A DNA stretch of 64,000 nucleotides, from IMG/VR virus record IMGVR_UViG_3300047299_000042, positions 1 through 64,000 of that record, one strand, 5' to 3'. Numbering within the stretch: the first letter of the stretch is position 1; each line of letters starts with the position of its first letter. Shown piece after piece: positions 49,099-62,728 of this stretch. Origin of the DNA: a virus. Position numbers and translations under genes: made by a program. Below the pieces are notes generated by a model. That model was given only the letters and a program-made list of their open reading frames with translations, did not search any database and had not been told where the DNA came from.

Positions 49099-49108
49099 TT
49101 GTTTGGTT
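49099..49108 (-). promoter_or_regulatory. AACCAAACAA leader fused to a tRNA 3' end
   Basis: Exact leader copy. Its first base is the last A of the ACCA of tRNA-like RNA A, and it lies 8 nt before the ATG at 49090. Confidence 0.55.
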
Positions 49109-49182
49109 GGTAGTCAGGACAGGATTCGAACCTGTATCTACTCCGTATTCTTCATATGCGTCTACCATTCCGCCACCTGACT
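49108..49182 (-). tRNA. tRNA-like RNA A, 75 nt with encoded ACCA
   Basis: Acceptor AGTCAGG/CCTGACT (7 bp) followed by ACCA; T arm ACAGG-TTCGAAT-CCTGT; D arm GCGG-AATGGTAG-ACGC of the Leu type. The 22 nt between D and T arms do not form a clean 5-bp anticodon stem; the best fold has one mismatch, so no anticodon is assigned. RNA C has the same body with a different, compensating acceptor stem. Confidence 0.68.
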
Positions 49183-49405: not shown

Positions 49406-49531
49406 AAATTTGAATAGCTTAGGTACTATTCGCGAGGCGTTTCCTACTGTTGCGCCAACCACCGTTCAGGATGTATGCACCATCTAACGGTTCTCATCAG
49501 TTCTCTGTGCATAGCATAGATGAGAGTCTGA
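49406..49531 (-). ncRNA. Structured spacer between tRNA-like RNAs B and C
   Basis: Stems TCTCATC/GATGAGA, CCGTT/AACGG (with an inner GATG/CATC) and GGCG/CGCC are visible on the minus strand. No gene fits. Confidence 0.38.
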
Positions 49532-49602
49532 AATAGGGACAGGATTCGAACCTGTATCTACTCCGTATCCTTCATATGCGTCTACCATTCCGCCACCCTA
49601 TT
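49532..49602 (-). tRNA. tRNA-like RNA C, paralogue of A
   Basis: Acceptor AATAGGG/CCCTATT; D and T arms identical to RNA A; one base change in the central region. The acceptor differs from that of A on both strands of the stem, so pairing is conserved. No CCA is encoded. It is the first RNA after the cluster promoter. Confidence 0.62.
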
Positions 49603-58757: not shown

Positions 58758-59018
58758 TTATGCTTGGTTTAAATTGTTGCTCGTGGAATCTGACATTGCC
58801 ACGCGGATTTGATTCTTGGTTGCGTAGCGAACTACCCAATCCATTTGCTTCTCGGATATCTTACCCATCCAAAAAAATATGTCCATAATTTGTCTAATCT
58901 TAGGCGCTTCTTTGTCGCCCGTATTAGCATACATCCGCTCCTTGCAGAACTTGTTAATCTCATAGATGTAACGCATCTGCAACTCGTTGTTGGTTTCTAA
59001 AATTTCCCTTACGTTCAT
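58758..59018 (-). CDS. Hypothetical protein
   Basis: An 86-residue charged helical protein (MNVREILETNNEL). Not recognised. Confidence 0.4.
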   Translation of the reverse strand: MNVREILETNNELQMRYIYEINKFCKERMYANTGDKEAPKIRQIMDIFFWMGKISEKQMDWVVRYATKNQIRVAMSDSTSNNLNQA

Positions 59019-59022
59019 AGTG

Positions 59023-59247
59023 TTATTTATTTAAATGCGCTCTACTACCATAAGGATAAAAAGTCCACCTATCTGACTCGTTATCTTCAAAGTCCAAGGC
59101 TATCTCAATATTCATAAGAGATGCCATCACCTCGTGCAATTTTCCGTCTCTAGGATAATTGTCATTAAGAAATTTTGCGATGCACTCAACCTCATCCATT
59201 ACTAAGTTAGTGCGACGCTCAATAAGTTCTTTTGAATAAGTTTCCAT
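59023..59247 (-). CDS. Small helical protein with hairpin leader 1
   Basis: A 74-residue protein starting at 59247 (METYSKELIERR). An in-frame extension upstream reads through the conserved hairpin and is spurious. The hairpin ends 9 nt before the ATG, so it may control translation. Not recognised. Confidence 0.45.
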   Translation of the reverse strand: METYSKELIERRTNLVMDEVECIAKFLNDNYPRDGKLHEVMASLMNIEIALDFEDNESDRWTFYPYGSRAHLNK

Positions 59248-59256
59248 TGTATGAAT

Positions 59257-59275
59257 GCGGTTGCCTATACACCGC
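59257..59275 (-). promoter_or_regulatory. Conserved translational hairpin 1
   Basis: GCGGT-GTATAGGCA-ACCGC on the minus strand, preceded by AACCTT. It ends 9 nt before the ATG at 59247. Confidence 0.65.
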
Positions 59276-59287
59276 AAGGTTAAATGA

Positions 59288-59503
59288 TTATATAGCATTA
59301 TTTTCTCTTATATTCTTTAAGCATAATGAAAAGAATAATATCTGATGGCAATTATATATAGCATATCCACTACTAGACAAGTCTTTTATTGTATCAGATA
59401 ATTTGCGAGAGGCTTTCTCTACTCCAAACTCTCTTGTAATTTCGTTTGCATAAGTAATTGCATCCTTATAATACTTGTTGTCAATTTTATTTATTGTATT
59501 CAT
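59288..59503 (-). CDS. Small helical protein with hairpin leader 2
   Basis: A 71-residue protein starting at 59503 (MNTINKIDNKYYK). The extension through the hairpin is rejected as above. The hairpin is identical to hairpin 1 over more than 30 bp. Not recognised. Confidence 0.45.
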   Translation of the reverse strand: MNTINKIDNKYYKDAITYANEITREFGVEKASRKLSDTIKDLSSSGYAIYNCHQILFFSLCLKNIRENNAI

Positions 59504-59512
59504 AGTATTGTT

Positions 59513-59531
59513 GCGGTTGCCTATACACCGC
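59513..59531 (-). promoter_or_regulatory. Conserved translational hairpin 2
   Basis: Same stem and loop as hairpin 1; ends 9 nt before the ATG at 59503. Confidence 0.65.
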
Positions 59532-59543
59532 AAGGTTAAATGA

Positions 59544-59960
59544 TTAATGTTTTTTAGTTCTATTTAACTTGTTTAATATATCTACGACTTCTGAATCATC
59601 AATCAATTCAATGGTTTGTCCGTCGTATTTAAAATCCTCTACGGGCAAATACGCATAGTAATATTGGTCGAAATTAATTAGACTAAAGCTATCGTAAGCG
59701 CCATCGCAATCAGCCTCAAAACTCCAAGTAAGAAATCCGTAGCGCATCTCTTGGCTAGAATTAACTTCTTTCATCTTAACAAAGTAAAACTCATTGCCAC
59801 TAGATTTTGAGCGAATCATTGTGTCCGTAAATTGAACAATACATCCGTCTATAATTACGGGCAAAAACAAGTCTTGCTGATGCTCGTAGATGTTCCAATT
59901 CTTTATGCAATTTTCAGTTATAGCCCCCGTGATTGGAGGATTTGATATTGAGGTTCTCAT
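59544..59960 (-). CDS. Acidic hypothetical protein with hairpin leader 3
   Basis: A 138-residue acidic beta-rich protein starting at 59960 (MRTSISNPPITG). The frame extends upstream through the hairpin but the ATG 8 nt after the hairpin is preferred. Not recognised. Confidence 0.45.
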   Translation of the reverse strand: MRTSISNPPITGAITENCIKNWNIYEHQQDLFLPVIIDGCIVQFTDTMIRSKSSGNEFYFVKMKEVNSSQEMRYGFLTWSFEADCDGAYDSFSLINFDQYYYAYLPVEDFKYDGQTIELIDDSEVVDILNKLNRTKKH

Positions 59961-59968
59961 TATAGGTT

Positions 59969-59988
59969 GCGGTTGACCTATACACCGC
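59969..59988 (-). promoter_or_regulatory. Conserved translational hairpin 3
   Basis: GCGGT/ACCGC stem with one extra loop base relative to hairpins 1 and 2; ends 8 nt before the ATG at 59960. Confidence 0.62.
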
Positions 59989-60000
59989 AAGGTGATGATG

Positions 60001-60918
60001 TTATTTAGATAAGATTAATTCGACTGCCTCGTGCGCCTTAGTAGATGCGCTCATAATCAACTTAGGGTCTGACTTGAACTTGCTAATCCATCCGTTGATG
60101 TATGCTTGGCTATTCTTAAAGTCATCTATCGCCGTTTGAATGCCCGTGATAGCCTCTAAGTATAGTGCGCCTAGTTCAGCTACTAACTCCTCTTTGCTAT
60201 ACTCATCAGAGCCAAAACTTGCCATCTTGTCTAGGCGGTCAAGTCTAGTCTTGTGACCCGTTGAGTGGATAGCCTCGTGAAAGAATACCTTGTAGTAGTC
60301 ACCATTAGATTTCCATTGCTCGGTAGTTTTAGCGGGCATATGGATAAAGTCACCGCTAGGAGAGTAGTAAGCGCGACCTTGACCGCTATGCTTCAGCGTT
60401 ACCTCTTTGCACCAAGCCTCAAGGATTGATTCAGCGTGTGCGTCTGCCTCTAGTTCACTAACCTCTACAGGTTGCGATGGGGTGTCAAGTGGTAGGTCAG
60501 TTTGTGAGATAGAGAATACCTTGAACACTTGTAAGTAGAACGCCTTCTTAGCTTGCTTTTGTAGGTGGCTTGGAACATCTTCTAGGCGGGCAAAGTATTG
60601 GGTCTTACCCGCAATCTCGACCGCAAAGTTGACCTTCCAAAGGTAGACATCCGTAGACTTCTCGCCCTTGTTAACACGACCGCCTAGCTTAGATACTTGA
60701 GCGAATGTATACCACTTGTTTACCCATCCCTTGGCGATTGCCTTGCCCGATAGAATGAACTGATTAATGCCTCGGTAGGGTTTCCCTTGTGAGTTGATAG
60801 CTGACCATTGCATAGTCGTGCTATCCTTAAAAGGTTTGAACCATTGCAAGCCTTTAGCTTGTAGTCCTTCGATGATTGTGTTATTGATGTTTTCGATTAA
60901 TTCTGCTTGAGTTGCCAT
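60001..60918 (-). CDS. ardC: ArdC-like antirestriction protein
   Basis: A 305-residue protein. The N-terminal about 100 residues are the ArdC single-stranded DNA-binding domain (WFKPF...INSQGKPYRGINQF...VNKGEKSTDVYLWK). The C-terminal domain is a metallopeptidase-like fold with HEAIH (214-218) and a downstream Glu (E248, in EELVAELGA). ArdC proteins protect incoming DNA from host restriction and are often expressed early or on entry. Its place at the promoter-proximal side of the early arm fits early protection. Confidence 0.85.
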   Translation of the reverse strand: MATQAELIENINNTIIEGLQAKGLQWFKPFKDSTTMQWSAINSQGKPYRGINQFILSGKAIAKGWVNKWYTFAQVSKLGGRVNKGEKSTDVYLWKVNFAVEIAGKTQYFARLEDVPSHLQKQAKKAFYLQVFKVFSISQTDLPLDTPSQPVEVSELEADAHAESILEAWCKEVTLKHSGQGRAYYSPSGDFIHMPAKTTEQWKSNGDYYKVFFHEAIHSTGHKTRLDRLDKMASFGSDEYSKEELVAELGALYLEAITGIQTAIDDFKNSQAYINGWISKFKSDPKLIMSASTKAHEAVELILSK

Positions 60919-60958
60919 TGTATGATTTGATTAAGTTATTTAAAAGTTGAGCGTGGAA

Positions 60959-61174
60959 TTACTTGTTGCGTAGGTTATTATTGCGAGCCGAAGCCTCAGA
61001 AAATAATGAGATGATAAATCCCATTACTGCCACTACAAAGTGAGCCTCTCGGTCAATTGTAGTGTCATTAAAATACCAAGACTTAACGATGCCATACAAG
61101 GCGAATGCGACTAGTAATAAACCTGCGATATAGGTAATGTTATTTGCTATTGAAATTTTCTTGCGTGTGTTCAT
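60959..61174 (-). CDS. Two-pass small membrane protein
   Basis: A 71-residue protein with two hydrophobic segments (about residues 8-29 and 44-60) around a short hydrophilic loop. Early phage membrane proteins of this type are often superinfection-exclusion factors; here that is only a suggestion. Confidence 0.5.
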   Translation of the reverse strand: MNTRKKISIANNITYIAGLLLVAFALYGIVKSWYFNDTTIDREAHFVVAVMGFIISLFSEASARNNNLRNK

Positions 61175-61186
61175 TGTATGTTAATT

Positions 61187-61267
61187 TAAGATTTGAATGA
61201 TTTGGATTAAAGCGCTCCCTACCATATAGATAGCGAGCGCAAAGAAGAATGGGATTAAATATTTCAT
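61187..61267 (-). CDS. Tiny hydrophobic peptide gene (tentative)
   Basis: About 26 codons from an ATG at 61267 encode a Phe/Ile/Ala-rich, membrane-like peptide (MKYLIPFFFALAIYM). It fills the gap between two early genes. The exact stop should be rechecked; confidence is low because of its size. Confidence 0.35.
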
Positions 61268-61272
61268 ATACA

Positions 61273-61530
61273 TTAGGTTAAAATGATTCTAAAAGGAACG
61301 TCATTATAAGTAAAGGTCATTTCAAGAAATCCGTTGTCCATAATCGGCAACTGCTTAAAGTTATCTAGCTTAGAAACAATAAGATGTCTCATCCATTCGG
61401 GGCTATATCTGCCTTGAAATTTAACCTCTCGTCTGTCTATTGAGATGTCGTAAACGCAGGTATCAATGGCGTAAAGATTTAATTTTTGTGATACTGCTTG
61501 AACTGCTGATAATGTTGCTTGTAATTCCAT
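61273..61530 (-). CDS. First early protein, with hairpin leader 4
   Basis: An 85-residue alpha/beta protein (MELQATLSAVQAV). It is the promoter-proximal gene of the minus-strand arm, 10 nt after hairpin 4. Not recognised; early position suggests host takeover. Confidence 0.48.
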   Translation of the reverse strand: MELQATLSAVQAVSQKLNLYAIDTCVYDISIDRREVKFQGRYSPEWMRHLIVSKLDNFKQLPIMDNGFLEMTFTYNDVPFRIILT

Positions 61531-61540
61531 TTGATTTCAC

Positions 61541-61557
61541 TCGGTTACCTACACCGA
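61541..61557 (-). promoter_or_regulatory. Conserved translational hairpin 4 (variant)
   Basis: TCGGT-GTAGGTA-ACCGA: the outer pair is T-A instead of the G-C of hairpins 1-3, a compensatory change, and the loop is shorter. It ends 10 nt before the ATG at 61530. Confidence 0.58.
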
Positions 61558-61576
61558 AAGGATAGTTGATTTGATT

Positions 61577-61637
61577 TGGTGACTAGGGAGGGAGTCGAAC
61601 CCTTCCGCCTTTGACATTCGCAAGCCGTTGCCTAGTC
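61577..61637 (-). tRNA. Miniature tRNA-like RNA E with encoded ACCA
   Basis: GACTAGG/CCTAGTC forms a perfect 7-bp acceptor followed by ACCA. The T arm AAGGG-TTCGACT-CCCTC has one mismatch at its base. Only 26 nt separate acceptor and T stem, too short for normal D and anticodon arms (total 61 nt). It could be a truncated tRNA, a tRNA-like 3' end of a longer RNA, or a minimal tRNA mimic. Confidence 0.55.
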
Positions 61638-62728
61638 TTAAAATTCATAGTTTCGTTTCAACCTTGTTGCCTAGGGAGTCAATTTCAGAGGTTAGCCTCT
61701 TAGTCTATTGCCTAGGCGGGAGTTCAGTCTATGGATAGTATCGGGTGTCCCTACGCACTATCGAGCGGAATGTTTACGGGGTTCAGCCGTTAGTTCGTGA
61801 TTTCAGAACTAAACAAGATGTCAAAGAACTTTTTAATCATACTCTCAAAGACTTGCGCTTCTAGTCTCGTGGCTACTTCGCTAGGCTAACCTTGCTACTC
61901 TTGCCGACCCTCAGATGGTAACCCGTACCTCTTAATTTACCGCCCTTATCTTTTACCCTTTGAACCCGTTGGGAATCGTTATCCCCGATTGGCAAAGTAA
62001 AATTAGGTAAATCTTTTGGTTTATCAATACCTTGGTTCTCTCAAACCCCTAGTAGTAGACGAAATGGCTAATTGTGTCGACGAAACTCCATTTTACCCCA
62101 TATTTCTTAGATAAATACAATGAATTTTAATGATTTAGTATTATTCAAAGAAACTCCCTTTTATATACTATATGTATAACACTATTACACCCCTCAAAAT
62201 ACCCCGATTTTGCGTCTAAGCGATTATCTCGAATAGGGCTTATAGAATGGACATTTGAACACGAAAGTGTCTTAAATCGAAGATTTGACCCCTTAAAATG
62301 AATGCTAGTAAAATGGGGGTTTTGTTTTAAAGGTGATGTGAGGAAGGATAATTCCCCTAGGACAAATCCGCCCCCATTTAATCTATTGCCACATTATTTT
62401 GTCGCATTACTCCTTACCTCCAAACCTTGGGCATAGTTTCTTCTCTCTAAAGGAATGAATCGGAAAGATACTACCGACAAGGTGACCATTGTACCACACT
62501 GATACATTGGAAAATTATTATTGTATCATAAGAATACATTGGGCATAATTTTGGATTTCTGATTCTGAAATGTGACCCCACCCCATCGCGAAAAGTCGTT
62601 TGTCGTCTGCGTGCGCGACCCGTCGGATAGTATATATAACCCTCAGAGCACAACTACGTGCTGCTAAAAATTGACATTACAGTAATATATATCTATCTTT
62701 ACCTTTACAAACCAAACAAACATTTAAA
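61638..62728. other. Noncoding divergence region between early and late arms
   Basis: About 1.1 kb with no convincing gene. On the left are three TTGCCTAG copies 39 and 41 bp apart (61628, 61667, 61708; the first overlaps RNA E), a hairpin AGAGG-TTAG-CCTCT (61687-61700) and GATAGT/ACTATC (61734-61762). The right part is AT-rich with promoter-like words. It probably holds the early promoters and structured leader RNA. A clean minus-strand TAnnTTTG was not found. Confidence 0.5.
62668..62719 (+). promoter_or_regulatory. Promoter-like element plus AACCAAACAA leader
   Basis: TTGAC upstream and TATCTTTA around 62693-62700 (one base from consensus), then AACCAAACAA at 62710-62719, 9 nt before the ATG at 62729. 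Confidence 0.5.

Follow-up and report, generated by a model that had tools for sequence, protein, structure and literature searches.

A putative translational pseudoknot at a near-constant distance from start codons of unrelated genes in phages, mostly of Bacteroidota

The sequence studied here comes from an IMG/VR virus record of 64,940 bases, most of which is covered by the window, that is, the whole stretch of 64,000 nucleotides that was analysed. Four copies of a short element lie in it ahead of four small frames. A previous reading from the sequence alone (hereafter the sequence-only reading) had described them as four hairpins at a near-constant distance from ATGs, and this holds: the gaps are 9, 9, 8 and 10 nt, and all copies are on the minus strand. 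Copy 1 (59257..59279) comprises a CCT (59279-59277), the two strands of a stem, GCGGT (59275-59271) and ACCGC (59261-59257), hereafter stem 2, and an AGG (59266-59264) in its loop; it lies 9 nt 5' of an ATG (A at 59247) and is matched by our covariance model with an E-value of 1.2 × 10-4 in 1 Mb. Copy 2 (59513..59535) is identical in sequence and stands 9 nt before an ATG (A at 59503). Copy 3 (59969..59992; E-value = 1.1 × 10-5), with the loop GTATAGGTCA, stands 8 nt before an ATG (A at 59960). Copy 4 (61541..61561) exhibits a short-loop form 10 nt before an ATG (A at 61530), and is matched with an E-value of 0.32 in one search and 3.9 × 10-4 in another. The stem is GCGGT/ACCGC in three copies and TCGGT/ACCGA in copy 4; the loops are GTATAGGCA (twice), GTATAGGTCA and GTAGGTA. 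The frames that follow, all on the minus strand, encode hypothetical proteins of 74 aa (59023..59247, copy 1), 71 aa (59288..59503, copy 2) and 85 aa (61273..61530, copy 4), and a protein of 138 aa without a Pfam match (59544..59960, copy 3).

The pattern CGGTGTAN{0,4}GGN{0,4}ACCG matches the window exactly four times, whereas 100 dinucleotide shuffles average 0.01 matches. Searching the whole 64,940-base record with the covariance model returned the same four copies, the next being a single match at an E-value of 1.6. Copies 1 and 2 should be counted as less independent, because their flanks are alike (88% identity over 51 nt) and may stem from one recent duplication. Single-sequence folding of the copies is unremarkable (z about -0.4 to -1.2), so that the evidence for the element is comparative. 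DNA and protein searches of a named phage collection with the window sequence found nothing, and two of the proteins encoded 3' of the element have no relative in that collection. Other features of the record are two tRNA-Phe (GAA) genes (49108-49182 and 49530-49602), about 350 nt apart, and the start context CATACAATG, which is repeated at three window genes (59240-59253, 60911-60924 and 61167-61180), two of them without the pseudoknot described below.

The element is found in hundreds of places in many unrelated phages, mostly of Bacteroidota, with the consensus of an A-rich run followed by CCUY-N-CGGU-GUAN-AGG-YNA-ACCG-N'. Scanning IMG/VR, for which all copy numbers are lower bounds, with the pattern CCTTNCGGTGTAN{0,3}GGN{0,4}ACCG returned at least 119 stretches. 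Aligned in register, they begin with an A run and CCTT; one free base, CGGTGTA, in most cases NA, then GG, one to three bases, ACCG and the counterpart of the free base come next, and an ATG frequently follows closely. Of 119 distinct rows among the matches listed, 102 have a Watson-Crick pair between the free base and its counterpart (67 G-C, 18 T-A, 11 A-T and 6 C-G). When G was barred from the middle of the 5' strand and the 3' strand was left free, at least 87 distinct matches were obtained, 10 of which pair at all four tested pairs; among the matches listed, 8 of these 10 represent one swap, CTGT/ACAG, and in 7 of those 8 an ATG follows after 7-10 nt (by eye). With the two outer pairs free (58 distinct matches), one pair is C-G in 58/58 and the other is standard in 54/58. 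Model matches in flanks that had not been selected by pattern add the stems ACGAT/ATCGT, TCAAT/ATTGA, TCCAT/ATGGA, TCACT/AGTGA, TCCGT/ACGGA and CGGC/GCCG. A few G-U pairs are tolerated. Judged by these comparisons, stem 2 (NCGGU/ACCGN') pairs and covaries at all five pairs, two of the alignments behind the pair counts being fitted to the structure and so leaning towards it, related sequences not being independent, and alignment A2 being built from 27- and 29-nt copies only. The compensatory nature of the stem changes, as previously proposed, is confirmed by both pattern scans and model matches across many phages; relatives were checked for loss of pairing, and no such trend was seen.

The sequence-only reading took the element for a plain hairpin. 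Its stem is real, and a further feature that it did not remark, an upstream CCU complementary to the AGG of the loop (stem 1), makes a pseudoknot the better fit, as the 5' CCT can pair with the loop AGG. The element is thus likely to fold as an H-type pseudoknot. Stem 1 is near-invariant (26/26 in the aligned set) and therefore exhibits no covariation of its own. In an IMG/VR scan left free at both stem-1 strands, 45 distinct matches carry CCT as well as AGG, 44 carry neither, and no match has just one of them. An ATG frame begins within the next 44 nt in 35/45 matches that have the two motifs, versus 7/44 that lack them. A record of 327 kb contains two copies with GCC and GGC, 9 nt before an ATG, and a third with GCC and GGT, a wobble match (by eye). 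The compensatory support for stem 1 comes from this one phage (GCC/GGC), and a scan for further variants of this kind returned the same 327-kb record only. The second copy in locus L096 has ACT with AGA, one stem-1 pair being lost.

The position of the element relative to start codons was assessed on 194 distinct model matches, which remained from 205 after 11 sharing the element and the next 20 bases were merged. The underlying searches took in 36 loci chosen for having matches and 60 chosen loci (the latter including 9 of the 120 loci L213-L332 and none of L124-L186), and matches from two other model searches, whole records among them, were left out. An ATG-started frame of at least 30 codons begins 6-13 nt downstream in 135 of the 194, with 97 of these at 8-10 nt, a fraction that is lowered by the chance-like matches kept within the model's E-value limit; many GC-rich single matches of the first pattern scan likewise look like chance. 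At random places in the same loci, 4.6% have an ATG frame at 5-13 nt. A Shine-Dalgarno (SD)-like string lies between element and ATG in 1 of the 135 matches with the 6-13 nt gap and in 22 of the 30 matches (of 194) that have their ATG at 15-43 nt, a test biased to the longer gaps, where such strings arise more often; the other 29 of the 194 have no ATG frame within 44 nt. Annotated coding sequences start 8-10 nt after the element in Kolpuevirus Bc03, cr50_1, Podoviridae ctfjg026 and Capybara microvirus Cap1_SP_66. In phage cr116_1 (L344 4058-4375) an unannotated frame of 105 codons lies directly 3' of the element, and in Riemerella phage PJA1 the annotated coding sequence begins within the element, with a candidate ATG 22 nt on.

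From the position of the element, translational control is the best inference as to its putative function. Of the starts behind it, 69% have an A at -3 and 59% have one at -6. SD pairing is reported to be inhibited in Bacteroidota (PMC9976891), and in Flavobacterium an A at -3 and -6 is reported to favour initiation (PMC6847099). Taken with the A at -3 and -6 observed here, these reports favour a translation-initiation module. Against it, the same Flavobacterium source indicates that structure near the start codon usually lowers initiation (PMC6847099), which would favour a repressive role. An SD mimicry by the loop AGG was rejected as the main idea: the AGG lies about 16 nt from the ATG, and the copies that have an SD have it separately.

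The 163 proteins encoded 3' of the element fall into 117 clusters (blastp), which strongly supports the earlier proposal that conservation lies with the element rather than with the protein. Chance or coding constraint as the origin of the element is ruled out by the shuffle controls and by the same diversity of downstream proteins. In the window, an ArdC-like gene (60001-60918; Pfam ArdcN and MPTase-PolyVal) and the genes starting at 61174 and 59018 lack the element, and look-alikes of these three genes in L090, L044 and L036/L075 carry it (likeness by eye). Because look-alike genes differ in having it, the element seems to behave as a module that genes acquire and lose. A protein family was also encountered behind it: at six loci in Bacteroidales bins (L191, L192, L195, L198, L201 and L211), the frame of each member begins 6-10 nt after an element with the stem CCGGT/ACCGG, and members with an intact frame of listed length have 357-366 aa.

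The carriers include tailed phages, crAss-like phages, the 327-kb phage, Riemerella phages, single-stranded DNA Microviridae and prophage-like DNA of Bacteroidota. Bacterial genome contigs contributed 26 stretches, most of them titled Bacteroidota and some Clostridia or Saccharibacteria. The element also occurs within spacers of CRISPR-like arrays, in a Porphyromonadaceae bin (L187 220-705) and a Clostridia bin (L207 2501-3290). Copies cluster: among the matches listed, all 9 in the 327-kb record share one strand and fall within 48.2-68.7 kb, and all 15 in another whole record fall within 38.5-44.8 kb. One element each is present in the crAss-like pieces covered by the search, namely the two halves of Bc03 and 50 kb each of cr116_1 and cr50_1. 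Since microviruses of about 5-6.5 kb carry the element too, a dedicated phage protein as its ligand, which had been suggested as a possibility, is unlikely, and their presence among the carriers points to a host target. The constant place of the element, its independence of the gene and its presence in gene-poor phages together point to a target common to many bacteria, which would most simply be the ribosome.

Upstream of copy 4, ahead of the first gene of the cluster, is a further feature that had escaped the sequence-only reading. It is a tRNA-like minihelix (61577..61637, minus strand) with a 7-bp acceptor (GACTAGG/CCTAGTC), a T-arm with the loop TTCGACT (4/5 pairs) and a 3' ACCA, for which neither ARAGORN nor Rfam called a tRNA. 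We infer that it is likely a processing site. Further CCTAGG-bearing strings occur upstream (within 61577-61740, minus strand) and may be more minihelices of this kind. Among 18 distinct short-loop copies, a hammerhead core lies shortly upstream in 6 and a T-arm with a complementary stem in 6. The same test before long-loop copies gave one hammerhead-like and seven T-arm-like strings, which we put down to chance or to a tRNA farther away. When copies were split by upstream flank, which gives 20 short-loop copies by adding L044 11102, a strict test for a 7-bp acceptor and T-arm was positive in 4 of 20 short-loop copies (the window's included) versus 4 of 173 long-loop copies, the latter appearing accidental. 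Predicted hammerhead ribozymes are located between phage genes just 5' of the short-loop pseudoknot at L036 3027-3075, L044 11746-11794, L109 1361-1409 and L004 11416-11464, with RF00163 scores of 36.4 and 34.4 (L036 and L044, over the 34-bit cut-off) and 31.6 and 31.5 (L109 and L004, below it); no hammerhead (RF00163) was found in the window's own record. The distance from the predicted cut or acceptor end to the CCT is about 10-26 nt, and less in L037 6517 (by eye). In locus L109, moreover, the genes that open an early cluster are separated by several tRNA-like or minihelix elements (600-1075), with T-arm matches of the tmRNA model at 803 and 1046.

These upstream elements bear on two other explanations. 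One holds that the pseudoknot is a 5'-end stabiliser, shielding short-leadered or freshly cut mRNAs from 5'-end-dependent nucleases, its closeness to the AUG reflecting only short leaders. Such a role would suit the cutting sites that are predicted for most short-loop copies, about 10-26 nt ahead of them, and the promoter-like box (TAnnTTTG) 14-27 nt upstream in a few copies; this Bacteroidota -7 box exhibits no overall enrichment upstream of the element (17/287 versus 4.1% in the control). However, the link to hammerheads and T-arms is restricted to the short-loop form, most copies being long-loop without such an element, and shielding needs no sharp gap of 8-10 nt to the AUG. We consider stabilisation improbable as the main function, albeit a serious rival.

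The other explanation places the element at the DNA level. Phage N4 has single-stranded DNA hairpin promoters that are read by a phage RNA polymerase. A hairpin with a conserved loop and a stem that varies yet stays paired recalls such promoters, and crAss-like phages encode RNA polymerase subunits according to their annotations. This reading is nevertheless very hard to sustain, for the element is present in microviruses of 5-6.5 kb (the features listed in the microvirus record parts, from microviruses of 5.4-6.5 kb, include no polymerase gene), the few G-U pairs tolerated argue against it, and copies lie downstream of hammerheads, tRNA-like elements and, in a few cases, host-type promoter boxes. 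With such elements upstream, transcription can begin ahead of the element, which is then part of the RNA. From this association the element would be read in RNA rather than in DNA.

No family of Rfam 15 covers the element when the window is searched at gathering score, nor does any fall on it at lax E-values in eight sequences (window 59000-62700, L004 11000-14020, L036, L037, L044, L109, L336 and L341). The translational operator of gene 32 in T4 and RB69 is reported to be a pseudoknot of about 28 nt, 5' of the SD and start codon (PMC535899). With the likely fold, the present element would be alike in being a phage pseudoknot upstream of a start codon; here stem 2 covaries and stem 1 is near-invariant, with GCC/GGC in one phage. 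The operator differs in serving one gene through that gene's own protein and in its UUAAA repeats downstream, whereas the present element precedes unrelated genes, many of them with starts without an SD, and the diversity of the 163 downstream proteins shows no restriction to a single-strand-binding-protein gene. The leader of E. coli rpsO (S15) forms a pseudoknot at the ribosome-entry site, where it meets the 30S subunit. The element would resemble this docking on the 30S platform in its place at ribosome entry, but the rpsO leader autoregulates a ribosomal protein, has another sequence and size, and no such gene follows here. PreQ1 class I and other small H-type riboswitches are likewise very small pseudoknots in 5' UTRs; unlike them, the present element has no Rfam match, precedes genes that do not form one pathway, and lies upstream of the SD and not in it. 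The STAXI motif (RF01728) is described as pseudoknots near mobile-element and antirestriction genes (PMC2864571); its tandem repeats with UUCG loops set it apart, and none of six records had an RF01728 match over the family cut-off. HHphage, a hammerhead reported 13 nt upstream of the start codon of a halovirus early gene (PMC3088659), is alike in placing a ribozyme just before a virus gene, and the available part of that source describes no pseudoknot of the present kind. The literature covered on pseudoknots and structured RNAs in phages or Bacteroidetes, with a search for the core string, yielded no described counterpart in the portions available; the tables of motif surveys may list the element without a name.

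The gene 32 case lends weight to a second serious rival, a regulated switch or operator, in which a small ligand or a widespread protein of the host would bind to the pseudoknot and so close or open translation of the next gene. Conserved nucleotides in the loop and stem 1, with a stem 2 that is variable yet paired, are the usual look of ligand-binding RNAs, the site beside the AUG suits occlusion, and T4 gp32 is reported to repress its own mRNA via a pseudoknot 5' of the SD (PMC535899). Yet the genes behind the element share no pathway, phages with very few genes carry it too, and an Rfam riboswitch match is absent in the sequences scanned. We regard such a switch as somewhat unlikely.

The best explanation, which we hold with moderate confidence, is a modular translation-initiation pseudoknot of the 5' UTR that would act through the host ribosome. 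In cis in the phage mRNA, stem 2 would close the loop GUANAGGYNA, the AGG of which would pair with the upstream CCU. The pseudoknot would sit directly 5' of the ribosome-entry region, 8-10 nt before the AUG in mRNAs of Bacteroidota type without an SD, and upstream of the SD where there is one. As a portable module, it would dock on a conserved host component, our best guess being the 30S platform or the region of bS1, where the SD helix would lie, and docking would help to place the start codon, a positive effect. The transcripts of one phage group would be cut shortly upstream by a hammerhead or tRNA-like minihelix, which would bring the 5' end of the mRNA close to the pseudoknot. More tentatively, it is possible that the element is an IRES-like portable pseudoknot common to single-stranded DNA microviruses, crAss-like phages and very large phages, which replaces the SD helix on SD-blind Bacteroidota ribosomes and which one phage group pairs with ribozyme or tRNA-like cutting of early transcripts into short-leadered units.

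The way in which translation begins in Bacteroidota when there is no SD pairing is described as an open question (PMC6847099; PMC9976891), and an element of some 25 nt that stands at a fixed distance from the AUG in unrelated phages offers a direct handle on SD-free initiation. It flags small hypothetical genes in phages, is present in CRISPR spacers, and would serve as a compact part for gene expression in gut bacteria. The translational pseudoknots compared here serve one gene or pathway; a gene-independent leader RNA common to single-stranded and double-stranded DNA phages is unusual.
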